From Janibacter limosus (lineage in GTDB: Bacteria; Actinomycetota; Actinomycetes; Actinomycetales; Dermatophilaceae): DNA of 64,000 nucleotides. Position 1 is the stretch's first letter. Every line of letters starts with the position of its first letter. Below the pieces are notes generated by a model. It had not been told where the DNA came from and made no database searches. It saw nothing but the letters and a program-made list of their open reading frames with translations. Of the stretch, positions 1 through 64,000 are shown piece by piece. The translations under genes were made by a program, and so were the position numbers. The DNA is taken from assembly GCF_004295485.1 (NCBI RefSeq), contig NZ_CP036164.1, positions 3,472,001-3,536,000 on the forward strand, in the 5' to 3' direction.

Positions 1-1054
1 GCACGTCACCGATGGTCCCGTTCCCTGAGGAGGTCGCCCCGCGACCGTCTCGAAGGGCGGCGGCGGCCTTCGCGCCCTCGAGCAGCTGGGCGCCGCGCTC
101 GGCGGAGTTGGCGACCAGGCCCTCCTCCTCGATGACGTCGAGGGTGGCGACAGCGGCAGCGCAGGCCACCGCGTTGGCGCCGTAGGTGCCACCCTGCGAG
201 CCGGGCCACGCCTTGCTCATCAGCTCCTGCGAGGCGGCGATGCCCGAGATGGGGAAGCCGGAGGCGATCCCCTTGGCCAGCGTGATGATGTCGGGCTGCA
301 CGTCGAAGTGCTGGTGACCGAACATCTTGCCGGTGCGGCCGAAGCCGGTTTGGACCTCGTCCATCACCAGGAGGATGCCGTGCTTGTCCGCGCGCTCGCG
401 CAGACCCTGGAAGAAGGCGGTGTTGCCCGGGACGTACCCCCCTTCGCCCAGCACGGGCTCGACGATGAAGGCGGCGGTCTCCTGCGGCGAGGTGAGCGTT
501 GCGAGGATGAAGTCGAGCTCCCTGAGGGCGAAGGCGGTGGCCTCCTCCTCGCTCCAGCCGTAGCGGTAGGCATTGGGGAAGGGCGCGACGTGCACCCCGC
601 CCATGAGGGGTGAGAAGCCGGCCGAGAAGCGGGTGCCGGAGGTCGTCATCGTCGCGGTCGCGACCGTCCGACCGTGGAAGCCGCCGTGGAAGACGATGAC
701 ATTGGGCCGACCGGTCGCCTGGCGGGAGAGGCGCAGGGAGGCCTCCAGCGCCTCGCTGCCGGAGTTGGCGAAGAAGAGCGAATCGAGGTGCTCGGGCAGG
801 ACGCCGTTGAGTCGCTCGACCAGCGCGAGGAGGGGCTTGTGCATGACGGTCGTGTACTGACCGTGGATGAGCTTGCCGATCTGCTCCTGCGCGGCGGCGA
901 CCACCTTGGGGTGGCAGTGGCCCGTGCTCACGACGCCGATGCCGGCGGTGAAGTCGAGGTGGCGGTTGCCATCGACGTCGAAGATCTCACTGCCGAGGGC
1001 ATGGTCGATCGTGACGGGGGTGGCCTGCTTGAGCAGGGGGGACAACGCTGTCAT
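1..1054 (-). CDS. class III (PLP) aminotransferase, GabT-like, 3' end outside window
   Basis: Pyridoxal-phosphate aminotransferase of the acetylornithine/4-aminobutyrate class; about 351 residues are visible and the C-terminus lies beyond base 1. Visible family signatures are the NSGSEALEASL segment (about 97-107), the FHGGFHGRT loop (122-130), the cofactor Asp in MDEVQTGFG (D232) and the Schiff-base lysine in TLAKGIASG (K261). The ATG at 1054 has GGAGGT seven bases upstream on the minus strand. It is divergent from a succinate-semialdehyde dehydrogenase, so a GABA or related omega-amino-acid degradation pair is the most likely role (inference from context). Oddity: a 36-bp palindromic repeat (22-57) is read in frame as about 12 extra residues just before the conserved GDV stretch. 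Substrate is not provable from sequence. Confidence 0.9.
   Translation of the reverse strand, partial: MTALSPLLKQATPVTIDHALGSEIFDVDGNRHLDFTAGIGVVSTGHCHPKVVAAAQEQIGKLIHGQYTTVMHKPLLALVERLNGVLPEHLDSLFFANSGSEALEASLRLSRQATGRPNVIVFHGGFHGRTVATATMTTSGTRFSAGFSPLMGGVHVAPFPNAYRYGWSEEEATAFALRELDFILATLTSPQETAAFIVEPVLGEGGYVPGNTAFFQGLRERADKHGILLVMDEVQTGFGRTGKMFGHQHFDVQPDIITLAKGIASGFPISGIAASQELMSKAWPGSQGGTYGANAVACAAAVATLDVIEEEGLVANSAERGAQLLEGAKAAAALRDGRGATSSGNGTIGDV
22..57. repeat. REP-like palindrome, family E, inside a coding sequence
   Basis: A 36-bp imperfect palindrome that starts TCCCTGAGGAGG and ends CGTCTCGAAGGG. It is the same family as the three tandem 35-bp copies at 22066-22170, in opposite orientation and with a variant centre. 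Its length is a multiple of three and it carries no stop in the aminotransferase frame. Confidence 0.8.
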
Positions 1055-1078
1055 CAGAACCTCCGAGTTGTTCGTCTG

Positions 1079-61384: not shown

Positions 61385-62405
61385 CAGCCGTGTCGGCTTC
61401 CCGATATCGGTGAGTTCGGGCCTCTTCTGGGGCTTCGTGGGGGTGCTGATCTTTTCCTTCACCGTCCCCTTCACCCGCCTCGCCGTGGGCGACGGAGCGA
61501 TGTCGCCGATCCTCGTCGGGGCCGGTCGAGCCGTGGTGGCAGCGATGGCGTCGGGCCTGCTGCTGGCGGGCACCCGTCAGCCCCTGCCGCGCGGGGGGCA
61601 GTGGTGGCGGCTGGTGGTCGTCGCCGCCGGGGTCGTGGCGGGATTCCCCCTCCTCACCTCCTTCGCCCTGACCCGCACCGAGGCGAGCCACGGCGCGGTC
61701 GTCATCGCGCTCCTGCCCGCCGCGACCGCGGTCGCGGCCGTCGTGCGGGTCCGGGAGCGTCCGCCGCGCACCTTCTGGATCGCGTCGACGGTGGGAGCCG
61801 TCGCCGCCGTCGGGTTCGCCGTGCTCCAGGGTGGCGGGTTGGGTCAGGTCGGGTCGGCGGACCTGCTCCTCTTCGGTGCGGTCGTGGCCGCTGCCGTGGG
61901 CTATGCCGAAGGGGGTCTGCTTGCGCGCGAGCTCGGCGCCTGGCAGACGGTGTCCTGGGCCCTCGTCATCAGCGCCCCGGTCATGCTCGTCCTCACGATC
62001 AGCGCCGTCGTCCGGCACCCGCCGCAGGCGGGCGCCACCGAGTGGGCGGCCTTCGCCTACCTCGGTCTGATGAGCATGTGGCTGGGCTTCTTCGCCTGGT
62101 ACCGGGGGCTTGCGGTGGGCCCGATGGCGCAGGTCAGCCAGATCCAGCTCACCCAGCCGGTCATGACGATCGCGTGGGCGGGGCTCCTCCTCGGCGAGGA
62201 GATCACGCCGCTCACCGTCGTCGGCGGTGCCGTCGTCATCCTGTGCGCCGCGCTCGCCGTGCGCTCACGGCGGACGCCGGCCCCGCCCTGTGCTTCAGGA
62301 GACTCAGCGTCCCCCGGGTCAGGAGGTCGGGACGTGCTCCTCGATGTCGGCGAGCCAGCGGGTGGCAGCGACATCGCTGGGCATCCGCAGGTCGCCTCGC
62401 GGTGA
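61362..62405 (+). CDS. EamA (DMT) family transporter
   Basis: 347 residues with ten membrane helices in two EamA repeats (SSGLFWGFVGVLIFSFTVPFTRLAVGD... and GSADLLLFGAVVAAAVGYAEGGLLAREL...); the second ends QIQLTQPVMTIAWAGLLLGEEITPLTVVGGAVVILCAALAV. It probably exports an amino acid or metabolite under control of the MocR protein. A hydrophilic tail of about 45 residues after the last helix is encoded over the 3' end of nadE (87-bp overlap). Confidence 0.9.
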   Translation: MRDHSSATSRVGFPISVSSGLFWGFVGVLIFSFTVPFTRLAVGDGAMSPILVGAGRAVVAAMASGLLLAGTRQPLPRGGQWWRLVVVAAGVVAGFPLLTSFALTRTEASHGAVVIALLPAATAVAAVVRVRERPPRTFWIASTVGAVAAVGFAVLQGGGLGQVGSADLLLFGAVVAAAVGYAEGGLLARELGAWQTVSWALVISAPVMLVLTISAVVRHPPQAGATEWAAFAYLGLMSMWLGFFAWYRGLAVGPMAQVSQIQLTQPVMTIAWAGLLLGEEITPLTVVGGAVVILCAALAVRSRRTPAPPCASGDSASPGSGGRDVLLDVGEPAGGSDIAGHPQVASR

Positions 62406-64000
62406 GACCGCCCCACCCGGCAGCACCTTGGGCCCGTTGGGCAGCGCCGACCGCTTGAACTGGTTGTCGAAGAAGCGCTGGACGAAGACGAGCAGCCACT
62501 TCCTGATCTCGGCGAGGTCGTAGGCGCCGCGGTCCTCCTCGGCGACGGAGCCGGGCCAGGTCCCCTTCGTCGCGTCGGACCAGGTCTGCTCCGCGAGGAA
62601 GGCGATCTTGCTCGGCCGGTCCCCGCGCCGCAGCACGTGGAAGAGGGTGAAGTCCTGCAGGGCGTACGGCCCGATCTTGTCCTGGGTGGACTGCGGCCGG
62701 TCGGCGTCCTTGCTGGGGACGAGCTCGGGGGAGATCTCGGTGTCCAGGACCGACAGGAGCGTCTGCGAGACCTCGGGCAGTTGGCCGGTGTCGGCGACCC
62801 AGTGCACGAGGTGCTGCATCAGGGTCTTGGGCACGCCCGCGTTGACTCCGTAGTGGCTCATCTGGTCGCCGACCCCGTAGGTGCACCAGCCGAGCGCGAG
62901 CTCGGACAGGTCACCGGTGCCGAGCACGATCCCGCCGCGCTGGTTGGCGATGCGGAAGAGGTAGTCGGTGCGCAGCCCGGCCTGCACGTTCTCGAAGGTG
63001 ACGTCGTAGACCTCGTCGGGGTGGTCCGCCTCGGGGTCGAGGCCGTAGGCGTGCCCCATGTCGCGCAGCATCTGGGTGGCGGCGGGACGGATGTCGAGCT
63101 CCTCCCACGTGATGCCGAGCGACTCCATGAGCGCGACCGCGTTGGTCTTGGTGTCGTCGCTCGTGGCGAAGCCGGGCATCGTGATCCCGATGATGTCGGT
63201 GCGCGGGCGCTCCAACCGGTCCATCGCCTTGGCCGCGACGAGCAGGGCGTGCGTCGAGTCGAGCCCGCCGCTGACCCCGATGACGATCTTGGGCTGCCAG
63301 TCGGGGCCGCCGATGGCGCGCAGCCGCTGGGTCAGCGCGCTGACCTGGATGTTGTAGGCCTCGTAGCAGTCCTGCGCGAGGCGCTCCTCGTCGTCGGGGA
63401 CGAAGGGGAAGCGGTCGAGCGGCCGCAGCAGCCCCAGGTCGCCGGTCGGCGGGTCGAGCTCGAGATGGACCTCGCGGTAGGGCGCGCTGTCGGTGCCGAT
63501 GCCCAATGCCACGCCGTTGTCGTCGAAGCTGCCCTGGCGCATCCGCTCCTGTCGCAGCCGGTCGACGTCGATGTCGACGAGGGTCTCGCGGGGACCGGAG
63601 GGGAAGCGCTCGGACTCGCCGAGGAGGTCGCCCCCTTCGTAGACCATGGTCTGCCCGTCCCACGACAGGTCGGTGCTGGACTCCCCTTCGCTCGCGGCGG
63701 CGTAGAGGTAGGCGGCGTTGCAGCGCATCGAGGCCGAGCGGGCGAGCAGGTGCCGGTCGTCGGCGCGGGCCACCGTGATGGGGGAGGCGGAGAGGTTGAG
63801 CAGGACGGTCGCGCCGGCGAGCGCGGCCTCGTGGCTCGGCGGGACGGGGACCCACATGTCCTCGCAGACCTCGACGTGGACGACGAGGCCCGGCACGTCG
63901 TCGACGTGGACGAGGACGTCGGTGCCGAAGGGGACACCGTCCAGCACCTCGGCGTCGTCACCGGTGGCGAAGGTCGGGCGGAACCACTCGTCGACGATGC
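62319..64000 (-). CDS. nadE: glutamine-dependent NAD+ synthetase, 5' end outside window
   Basis: About 560 C-terminal residues of the two-domain enzyme. The N-terminal nitrilase-type amidotransferase domain is represented by HVEVCEDMWVP with the catalytic Cys. The synthetase domain has the ATP loop GVSGGLDSTHALL, GTGDLSELALGWCTYGVGDQMSHYGVN and the conserved C-terminal NGPKVLPGGAVSPRGDLRMPSD. It amidates nicotinic acid adenine dinucleotide to NAD. The frame runs off the window edge at 64000. Confidence 0.96.
   Translation of the reverse strand, partial: IVDEWFRPTFATGDDAEVLDGVPFGTDVLVHVDDVPGLVVHVEVCEDMWVPVPPSHEAALAGATVLLNLSASPITVARADDRHLLARSASMRCNAAYLYAAASEGESSTDLSWDGQTMVYEGGDLLGESERFPSGPRETLVDIDVDRLRQERMRQGSFDDNGVALGIGTDSAPYREVHLELDPPTGDLGLLRPLDRFPFVPDDEERLAQDCYEAYNIQVSALTQRLRAIGGPDWQPKIVIGVSGGLDSTHALLVAAKAMDRLERPRTDIIGITMPGFATSDDTKTNAVALMESLGITWEELDIRPAATQMLRDMGHAYGLDPEADHPDEVYDVTFENVQAGLRTDYLFRIANQRGGIVLGTGDLSELALGWCTYGVGDQMSHYGVNAGVPKTLMQHLVHWVADTGQLPEVSQTLLSVLDTEISPELVPSKDADRPQSTQDKIGPYALQDFTLFHVLRRGDRPSKIAFLAEQTWSDATKGTWPGSVAEEDRGAYDLAEIRKWLLVFVQRFFDNQFKRSALPNGPKVLPGGAVSPRGDLRMPSDVAATRWLADIEEHVPTS

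Follow-up and report, generated by a model that had tools for sequence, protein, structure and literature searches.

DNA uptake sequences (DUS) have so far been named from two families only, both Gram-negative (PMC12616744). In the Neisseriaceae they are 10-12 nt long, number some 1,500 to 3,800 copies in named genomes (PMC3630211, PMC7371117), occur at one per 400-1100 bp and are often drastically reduced in neisserial genomic islands (PMC7371117); Frye and colleagues described dialects in that family that share a constant core and track the phylogeny (PMC3630211). The uptake signal sequence (USS) of the Pasteurellaceae is a 9-mer, of which two types exist in the family (PMC12616744), with one orientation commoner in reading frames and a bias to gene ends (PMC2346458). 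HIP1 of cyanobacteria is a highly repeated octamer of unsettled function (PMC4390886). Among actinobacteria, Micrococcus luteus needs comEA, comEC and a Flp/Tad pilus for transformation (PMC6370729). The subject of the present analysis is the word CCCTTCG in a 64,000-nucleotide stretch of Janibacter limosus (contig NZ_CP036164.1, positions 3,472,001 to 3,536,000; hereafter the window), in the rest of that genome and in related genomes. The word, preceded by CC or CT and less often by TC or AC, is in our judgement probably a DUS of Janibacter and of its sister genus, designated g35.

A preliminary description of the window had reported CCCTTCG and its complement CGAAGGG as over-represented on both strands, at about 100 copies. 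The count was 97 (51 forward, 46 reverse), compared with a mean of 11.1 (standard deviation 3.3, maximum 21) in 100 dinucleotide shuffles of the window and with 27 predicted by an order-2 Markov model. The enrichment held genome-wide: the whole genome (3,545,254 bases) carries 1,859 forward and 1,862 reverse copies, in total 3,721 or 1 per 0.95 kb with the strands equal, against 303 copies (143 forward, 160 reverse) of the word read backwards. Finer counts were made on a 464-kb sample, consisting of the window and twenty evenly spaced 20-kb stretches of the same genome, and on a larger sample of 564 kb.

The repeated unit is nine bases long, namely the core CCCTTCG and a two-base prefix. The prefix is CC in CCCCCTTCG, CT in CTCCCTTCG, TC in the weaker form TCCCCTTCG, and AC in ACCCCTTCG, which is likewise weaker and is the dialect of the sister genus. 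Relative to an order-2 model of the 464-kb sample, enrichment was 17-fold for CC, 12-fold for CT, 6-fold for TC and 2.6-fold for AC; the other 12 prefixes reached at most 1.3-fold, or at most 1.5-fold in 564 kb, where the prefix pattern repeats. Among the 97 copies in the window, 56 have CC or CT, 13 have TC and 8 have AC. CYCCCTTCG occurs 2,365 times genome-wide and its reversed word 35 times. One-mismatch neighbours of the 7-mer were enriched 1.8-fold at most (464 kb), and those of the two 9-mers, prefix variants aside, mostly stood at or below expectation; a few were enriched two- to threefold, among them CCCCCTTCC (19 against 6.5 expected) and CCCTCTTCG (24 against 10.7). Logos of 97 and of 346 copies had little beyond about 11 bases except codon periodicity, which speaks against repeats of REP or transposon origin, in which homology would run past the word. 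AT-rich flanking tracts of the Haemophilus type were sought around the copies, and none was convincing. The word is not palindromic, unlike HIP1, a palindrome with internal methylase sites. The sites of the window that carry one of the four prefixes are as follows.

438..446, forward strand, CCCCCTTCG
1482..1490, reverse strand, CCCCCTTCG
2400..2408, forward strand, CTCCCTTCG
2520..2528, forward strand, CTCCCTTCG
2557..2565, reverse strand, CCCCCTTCG
3147..3155, reverse strand, CTCCCTTCG
3581..3589, forward strand, CCCCCTTCG
6348..6356, reverse strand, CCCCCTTCG
7908..7916, reverse strand, CCCCCTTCG
8017..8025, forward strand, CCCCCTTCG
9179..9187, reverse strand, CTCCCTTCG
9251..9259, forward strand, CTCCCTTCG
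9872..9880, forward strand, CTCCCTTCG
11618..11626, reverse strand, CCCCCTTCG
11823..11831, forward strand, CTCCCTTCG
13119..13127, reverse strand, TCCCCTTCG (weaker form)
13782..13790, reverse strand, TCCCCTTCG (weaker form)
14448..14456, reverse strand, CTCCCTTCG
16072..16080, reverse strand, ACCCCTTCG (sister-genus dialect)
17856..17864, forward strand, CCCCCTTCG
17868..17876, forward strand, CTCCCTTCG
17880..17888, forward strand, CTCCCTTCG
18975..18983, reverse strand, CCCCCTTCG, intergenic
20238..20246, forward strand, TCCCCTTCG (weaker form)
21419..21427, forward strand, CCCCCTTCG
23035..23043, reverse strand, ACCCCTTCG (sister-genus dialect)
23661..23669, forward strand, CCCCCTTCG
23866..23874, reverse strand, CCCCCTTCG, intergenic
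23916..23924, forward strand, TCCCCTTCG (weaker form), intergenic
24858..24866, forward strand, CCCCCTTCG, wholly or partly intergenic
29758..29766, reverse strand, CTCCCTTCG
32943..32951, forward strand, CCCCCTTCG
33116..33124, forward strand, TCCCCTTCG (weaker form)
33779..33787, forward strand, CTCCCTTCG
34097..34105, forward strand, CTCCCTTCG, intergenic
34234..34242, reverse strand, CCCCCTTCG, intergenic
35130..35138, forward strand, CTCCCTTCG
35717..35725, reverse strand, TCCCCTTCG, left arm of a hairpin
35748..35756, forward strand, TCCCCTTCG, right arm of the hairpin
35847..35855, reverse strand, CCCCCTTCG
36827..36835, forward strand, CCCCCTTCG
38013..38021, forward strand, CTCCCTTCG
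38428..38436, forward strand, CCCCCTTCG
38924..38932, reverse strand, ACCCCTTCG (sister-genus dialect)
40159..40167, forward strand, CCCCCTTCG
41990..41998, forward strand, CCCCCTTCG
42010..42018, reverse strand, CTCCCTTCG
42358..42366, reverse strand, CCCCCTTCG, intergenic
43174..43182, forward strand, CCCCCTTCG, intergenic
43372..43380, reverse strand, CTCCCTTCG
44999..45007, forward strand, CCCCCTTCG, intergenic
46431..46439, reverse strand, ACCCCTTCG (sister-genus dialect)
47226..47234, reverse strand, CCCCCTTCG
47406..47414, forward strand, CTCCCTTCG
48900..48908, reverse strand, ACCCCTTCG (sister-genus dialect)
50222..50230, reverse strand, CTCCCTTCG
50426..50434, forward strand, CCCCCTTCG
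51261..51269, forward strand, ACCCCTTCG (sister-genus dialect)
52049..52057, reverse strand, CCCCCTTCG
52959..52967, forward strand, TCCCCTTCG (weaker form)
53436..53444, forward strand, CCCCCTTCG
53523..53531, forward strand, ACCCCTTCG (sister-genus dialect)
54009..54017, reverse strand, CCCCCTTCG
55865..55873, reverse strand, CCCCCTTCG
56677..56685, forward strand, TCCCCTTCG (weaker form)
56956..56964, reverse strand, CTCCCTTCG
57294..57302, forward strand, CTCCCTTCG
58911..58919, reverse strand, ACCCCTTCG (sister-genus dialect)
59021..59029, forward strand, CTCCCTTCG
60097..60105, forward strand, CCCCCTTCG
61280..61288, reverse strand, CTCCCTTCG
61907..61915, reverse strand, CCCCCTTCG, intergenic
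62561..62569, forward strand, TCCCCTTCG (weaker form)
63401..63409, reverse strand, TCCCCTTCG (weaker form)
63631..63639, forward strand, CCCCCTTCG
63682..63690, forward strand, TCCCCTTCG (weaker form)
63926..63934, reverse strand, TCCCCTTCG (weaker form)

Genes were taken from our own simple codon-score caller (457 genes in 464 kb), and synonymous codons were shuffled within each gene. The shuffles predicted 120 of the 358 coding copies of CCCTTCG, 26 of the 136 of CCCCCTTCG and 4.6 of the 88 of CTCCCTTCG; codon use does not account for the word, and the codon-shuffled model that the preliminary description had named as a possible refutation leaves the count unexplained. Two reading frames in which the 7-mer demands rare codons held 70 and 56 copies, for which the shuffles predicted 3.9 and 3.5, and the remaining four held 136 against 62, 59 against 43, 26 against 3.8 and 7 against 1.1. 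The copies in genes had been described as often encoding Pro-Phe-Ala/Val, and Pro-Phe-Val (55) and Pro-Phe-Ala (37) were indeed the tripeptides that the word most often encoded in the 464-kb sample. With the CC and CT forms pooled, 128 genic sites were sense and 96 antisense, an orientation preference that, like the 9-base length, recalls the USS of the Pasteurellaceae; the Janibacter word differs from the USS in sequence and host, in lacking convincing AT flanks and in lacking a gene-end bias, none being clear in the deciles of 221 sites. The 7-mer is denser between genes (2.06 per kb, copies in repeats of the repetitive extragenic palindromic (REP) kind counted) than within them (0.88 per kb), and 9-mer sites numbered 81 in 66.6 kb of intergenic DNA, about 1.2 per kb, against 0.62 per kb overall. 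In the intergenic DNA of the 464-kb sample an order-2 model ranked CCCTTCG first among over-represented 7-mers and CCCCCTTCG first among 9-mers (47 copies, 1.6 expected). The fifth of genes with the highest codon score had the lowest density, 0.36 sites per kb. Another word, CAATGTC, was also enriched in coding sequences over synonymous shuffles (59 against 10.7, 464 kb) and is unexplained.

A gene of the window had its best named match in Janibacter indicus, at 91% protein identity. High counts of the 7-mer were confined to two genera. Within the family, all 16 Janibacter genomes (1,957 to 4,020 copies, the lowest being a 79%-complete genome) and all three of g35 (3,219 to 3,824) were high; none of the other 167 of the 186 genomes came near, the highest count being 1,291, from a genome of 5.4 Mb that had 580 control words. 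In a sample of the order (396 genomes) CYCCCTTCG was high in three of three Janibacter and two of two g35 genomes (1,452 to 2,365) and at most 128 in the other 391. In a sample of the phylum (296 genomes), of which the J. limosus genome was the sole Janibacter or g35 member, CCCCCTTCG reached 1,479 there and at most 188 elsewhere. The high genomes are accordingly all the members of the two genera in each sample (19 of 186, 5 of 396 and 1 of 296). In gene trees built from ComEC (21 genomes) and from TadC (26), all the motif genomes included fell into one clade, with support of 99/99 and 98/95.

The core is invariant and the prefix follows the phylogeny. The CC form was strong in all motif genomes sampled. 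Counts of CTCCCTTCG overlap between the genera: 886 in the J. limosus genome, from 97 to 765 among the remaining 15 Janibacter genomes, and from 135 to 311 among those of g35. ACCCCTTCG had 712 to 839 copies in each of the three g35 genomes; the Janibacter genomes had 122 to 232, apart from G002 with 381. G002 branches deepest within Janibacter on the TadC tree, its AC count being intermediate and its CT count the lowest (97). Three non-motif genomes had 12 to 33 CT forms and 52 to 86 AC forms. Other dialect words were sought in one genome from each of five other family genera (23.8 to 43.8 kb each), where the top words were ordinary and coding-like. A density of about one per kb, inside the neisserial range, and a constant core with a varying 5' part are features shared with the DUS of the Neisseriaceae; the Janibacter word is unrelated to these in sequence, and its host phylum is high-GC Gram-positive.

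Sites are often gained or lost, and retention within Janibacter exceeds that of control words. Around ahpF, window sites were retained in 105 of 167 site-by-genome comparisons (63%) with 14 Janibacter relatives, and same-composition control 9-mers in about 37%. A window-anchored alignment of 20 kb in 18 genomes had 62 positions at which one or more genomes carried a CC, CT or AC form. Of these, 25 were occupied in a single genome (an upper bound, the alignment being incomplete for some genomes); 9 were shared by both genera, 8 belonged to g35 only, and 35 with g35 aligned plus 10 with no g35 alignment belonged to Janibacter only. The region around ahpF was compared in 15 Janibacter genomes: DNA common to at most two genomes held 15 sites in 32.5 kb (0.46 per kb) and shared DNA 249 in 240.5 kb (1.04 per kb; Poisson p 0.0003, with DNA common to related genomes treated as independent). 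This may parallel the reduction of DUS in neisserial islands, though the genes of lowest codon score show no such depletion. An insertion of 9.2 kb in G012, the Janibacter genome richest in 7-mer copies, had no site against 14.6 predicted from the rest of its locus; it is a cassette with a C5 cytosine methylase gene and an Eco29kI-type endonuclease gene (C1:2232001-2252000, 530-9767). The first 9 kb of stretch L142, with a resolvase gene, also had no site, an instance spotted post hoc.

The origin of replication was placed by means of dnaA, near 3.217 Mb, and dnaN. Strand skew about it, which the preliminary description had proposed to test, was not seen: sites divided 100 to 103 and 70 to 77 between the strands in the sampled parts of the replichores (564 kb), and there was no strand heterogeneity across 26 regions (p = 0.91). 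Gaps of more than 4 kb between sites were fewer than at random (14 against 27.1). Close pairs in reverse-forward order numbered 12 against 3.2 expected, with 3, 3 and 7 in the other orders. Inverted DUS pairs at terminators are familiar in the Neisseriaceae, and two of the best terminators of the window had been described as carrying the word as an inverted pair. The hairpins there, at 35717-35756 (-46.8 kcal/mol) and 45474-45511 (-49.7 kcal/mol), are very stable; neither is followed by a T run, and their prefixes are the weaker TC form (35717-35756) and the non-enriched CA form, both outside the core signal. Termination was rejected as the function of the word: only about 24 of 350 sites can be concerned (12 of 324 neighbouring pairs being reverse-forward), and convergent gene gaps have the lowest density, 0.84 against 1.34 per kb. 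A REP family had also been said to begin with the word. The tandem repeat at 22066-22142, three copies at 35-base spacing, does contain the 7-mer, with a GA prefix; it is a separate REP-like element that lacks the 9-mer and lies outside the core signal. A second REP-like family, built around the palindrome CCTTAAGG, occurred 24 times against 0.8 expected in the intergenic sample of the same genome, with one copy near 44890-44910 of the window.

Candidate genes for DNA uptake are present. In the J. limosus genome comEA (SLBB and helix-hairpin-helix) adjoins comEC at 1,907,748-1,911,001. Three secretion ATPases matched above the cut-off, all in Flp/Tad-like clusters and none in a classical type IV pilus cluster, which differs from the Neisseriaceae. 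The locus here called Tad-B (708.5-713 kb) has one T2SSE gene, two T2SSF genes, a TadE gene, a Tad/TadG-like gene, a second TadE-like gene with a score just below the cut-off and, between these genes, a 74-residue gene with no Pfam match, named flp from its position and resemblance. The set of comEA, comEC and a similar Tad locus is shared with M. luteus, a fellow actinobacterium, in which sequence-specific uptake is not described in the available part of PMC6370729. A full-length Tad-B tadC was found in 17 of 19 motif genomes. A third Tad locus (720-726 kb) at first looked clade-specific and was then dropped as the uptake machine, the related tadA being patchy in the family and several Janibacter having no close match (186 genomes, at most 8 candidates scored in each, among the matches listed). 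The last gene of this locus and its relatives has roughly 900 residues; some Janibacter have two tadA-like genes, and in G091 the locus lies near an integrase-like gene (by eye). Elsewhere in the window, genes read by eye at 6058-21000 resemble selA, selB, selD and a formate dehydrogenase cluster, and the frames of 900 and 191 residues at 15575-18916 may together encode a single selenoprotein interrupted by a stop codon.

The likeness to Neisseria and Haemophilus uptake sequences drawn in the preliminary description is supported in part: it extends to density, equal strands, the excess over the codon model, clade restriction, dialects, turnover, sparser strain-specific DNA and some inverted pairs. 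Several results weigh against it. No clade-specific receptor gene was found among the few genes compared. Two motif-rich genomes, G012 and G092, are without a full-length Tad-B tadC, the locus of G012 being the one interrupted by the restriction-modification cassette. comEC was found in all 21 genomes searched, 8 with the motif and all 13 without it, and tadC of Tad-B was matched over nearly its whole length in 8 of the 12 non-motif genomes searched and partially in a ninth, G035; because both genes occur in genomes without the motif, the machinery alone is not predictive of it. The lowest codon-score fifth of genes, the expected home of foreign genes, is undepleted (0.61 per kb). In distant genomes window sites were kept in 0 of 6 cases in G002 and 3 of 23 in g35, with control words at about 0.2, the word itself being equally frequent in those genomes. 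Nor does the CT count draw a clean line between the genera: that of G090, a g35 genome, is 311 and falls inside the Janibacter range. We infer that Janibacter is transformable, that its uptake favours the word and which protein reads it; competence has to be inferred because no report of natural transformation in Janibacter was found in a search outside which most subscription papers lay.

The main rival to an uptake sequence is a site bound by a chromosome protein particular to the clade, whether nucleoid-associated or acting in repair or segregation, with weak selection on each site. The greater intergenic density of the 9-mer, the shortage of long gaps and the confinement of the word to one clade would suit such a protein; the turnover of positions, the many copies in frames that demand rare codons, the lower density in strain-specific DNA and the want of a strand trend along replichores would not, and none was identified, no genome-wide search having been made. 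We regard it as unlikely, though as a serious candidate. A recombination or chromosome-organisation signal had been offered earlier as another possibility, and it is this non-polar version that keeps its place. Chi and KOPS are usually polar, and the even division of the word between strands disfavours that type. A Chi-like hotspot for enzymes of the RecBCD/AddAB/AdnAB class is accordingly improbable, even with a word that is short, non-palindromic and very frequent, and given that Chi words vary between clades.

Should the word mark self DNA for a host nuclease, or for another restriction-type discrimination of foreign DNA, it would be expected to be denser in shared than in strain-specific DNA, as it is. 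Restriction sites are normally avoided, however, and the enrichment runs counter to this; we know of no nuclease that spares tagged self DNA in such a way, and no clade-specific one was identified, nor was a search for one made. This explanation is very improbable. That the word is a by-product of composition, of codon bias, or of scattered REP elements and terminators is hardly credible: some 7-mer copies do sit in the tandem repeat and in hairpins, but the observed counts exceed those from Markov and synonymous-shuffle models about 3- to 19-fold, conservation past about 11 bases is slight apart from codon periodicity, and the excess is absent from the rest of the family.

If the word is an uptake sequence, a DNA receptor on the cell surface would bind DNA bearing the word better than other DNA. 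It would belong to the machinery of natural transformation and most probably to the pilus of Flp/Tad type, upstream of ComEA and ComEC. Fragments gaining the word by mutation would then enter the cell and recombine with its chromosome at a higher rate, a molecular drive by biased uptake, and copies would build up at arbitrary places, where they are least harmful, until mutation and the cost to genes offset the gain. Shifts in receptor preference would change the prefix and so give rise to dialects. Biased uptake of this kind would explain the equal strands, the arbitrary positions, the cost in codon use, the sparser codon-biased genes, the turnover, the dialects and the sparser strain-specific DNA.

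On balance we lean towards a third independent origin of DUS, the first in Actinobacteria and in Gram-positives, read by a competence pilus of Flp/Tad type and not by a classical type IV pilus, with dialects already split between sister genera. No earlier report of uptake sequences in Actinobacteria, including M. luteus and Janibacter, or in Gram-positives was found among the matches listed; most subscription literature lay outside the search, and a prior report may exist. If the reading is correct, the tagging of a genome as self would evolve repeatedly and independently of any one pilus type. Comparison of the dialects could then reveal the receptor, and the addition of the word to DNA would suggest itself for the transformation of Janibacter.

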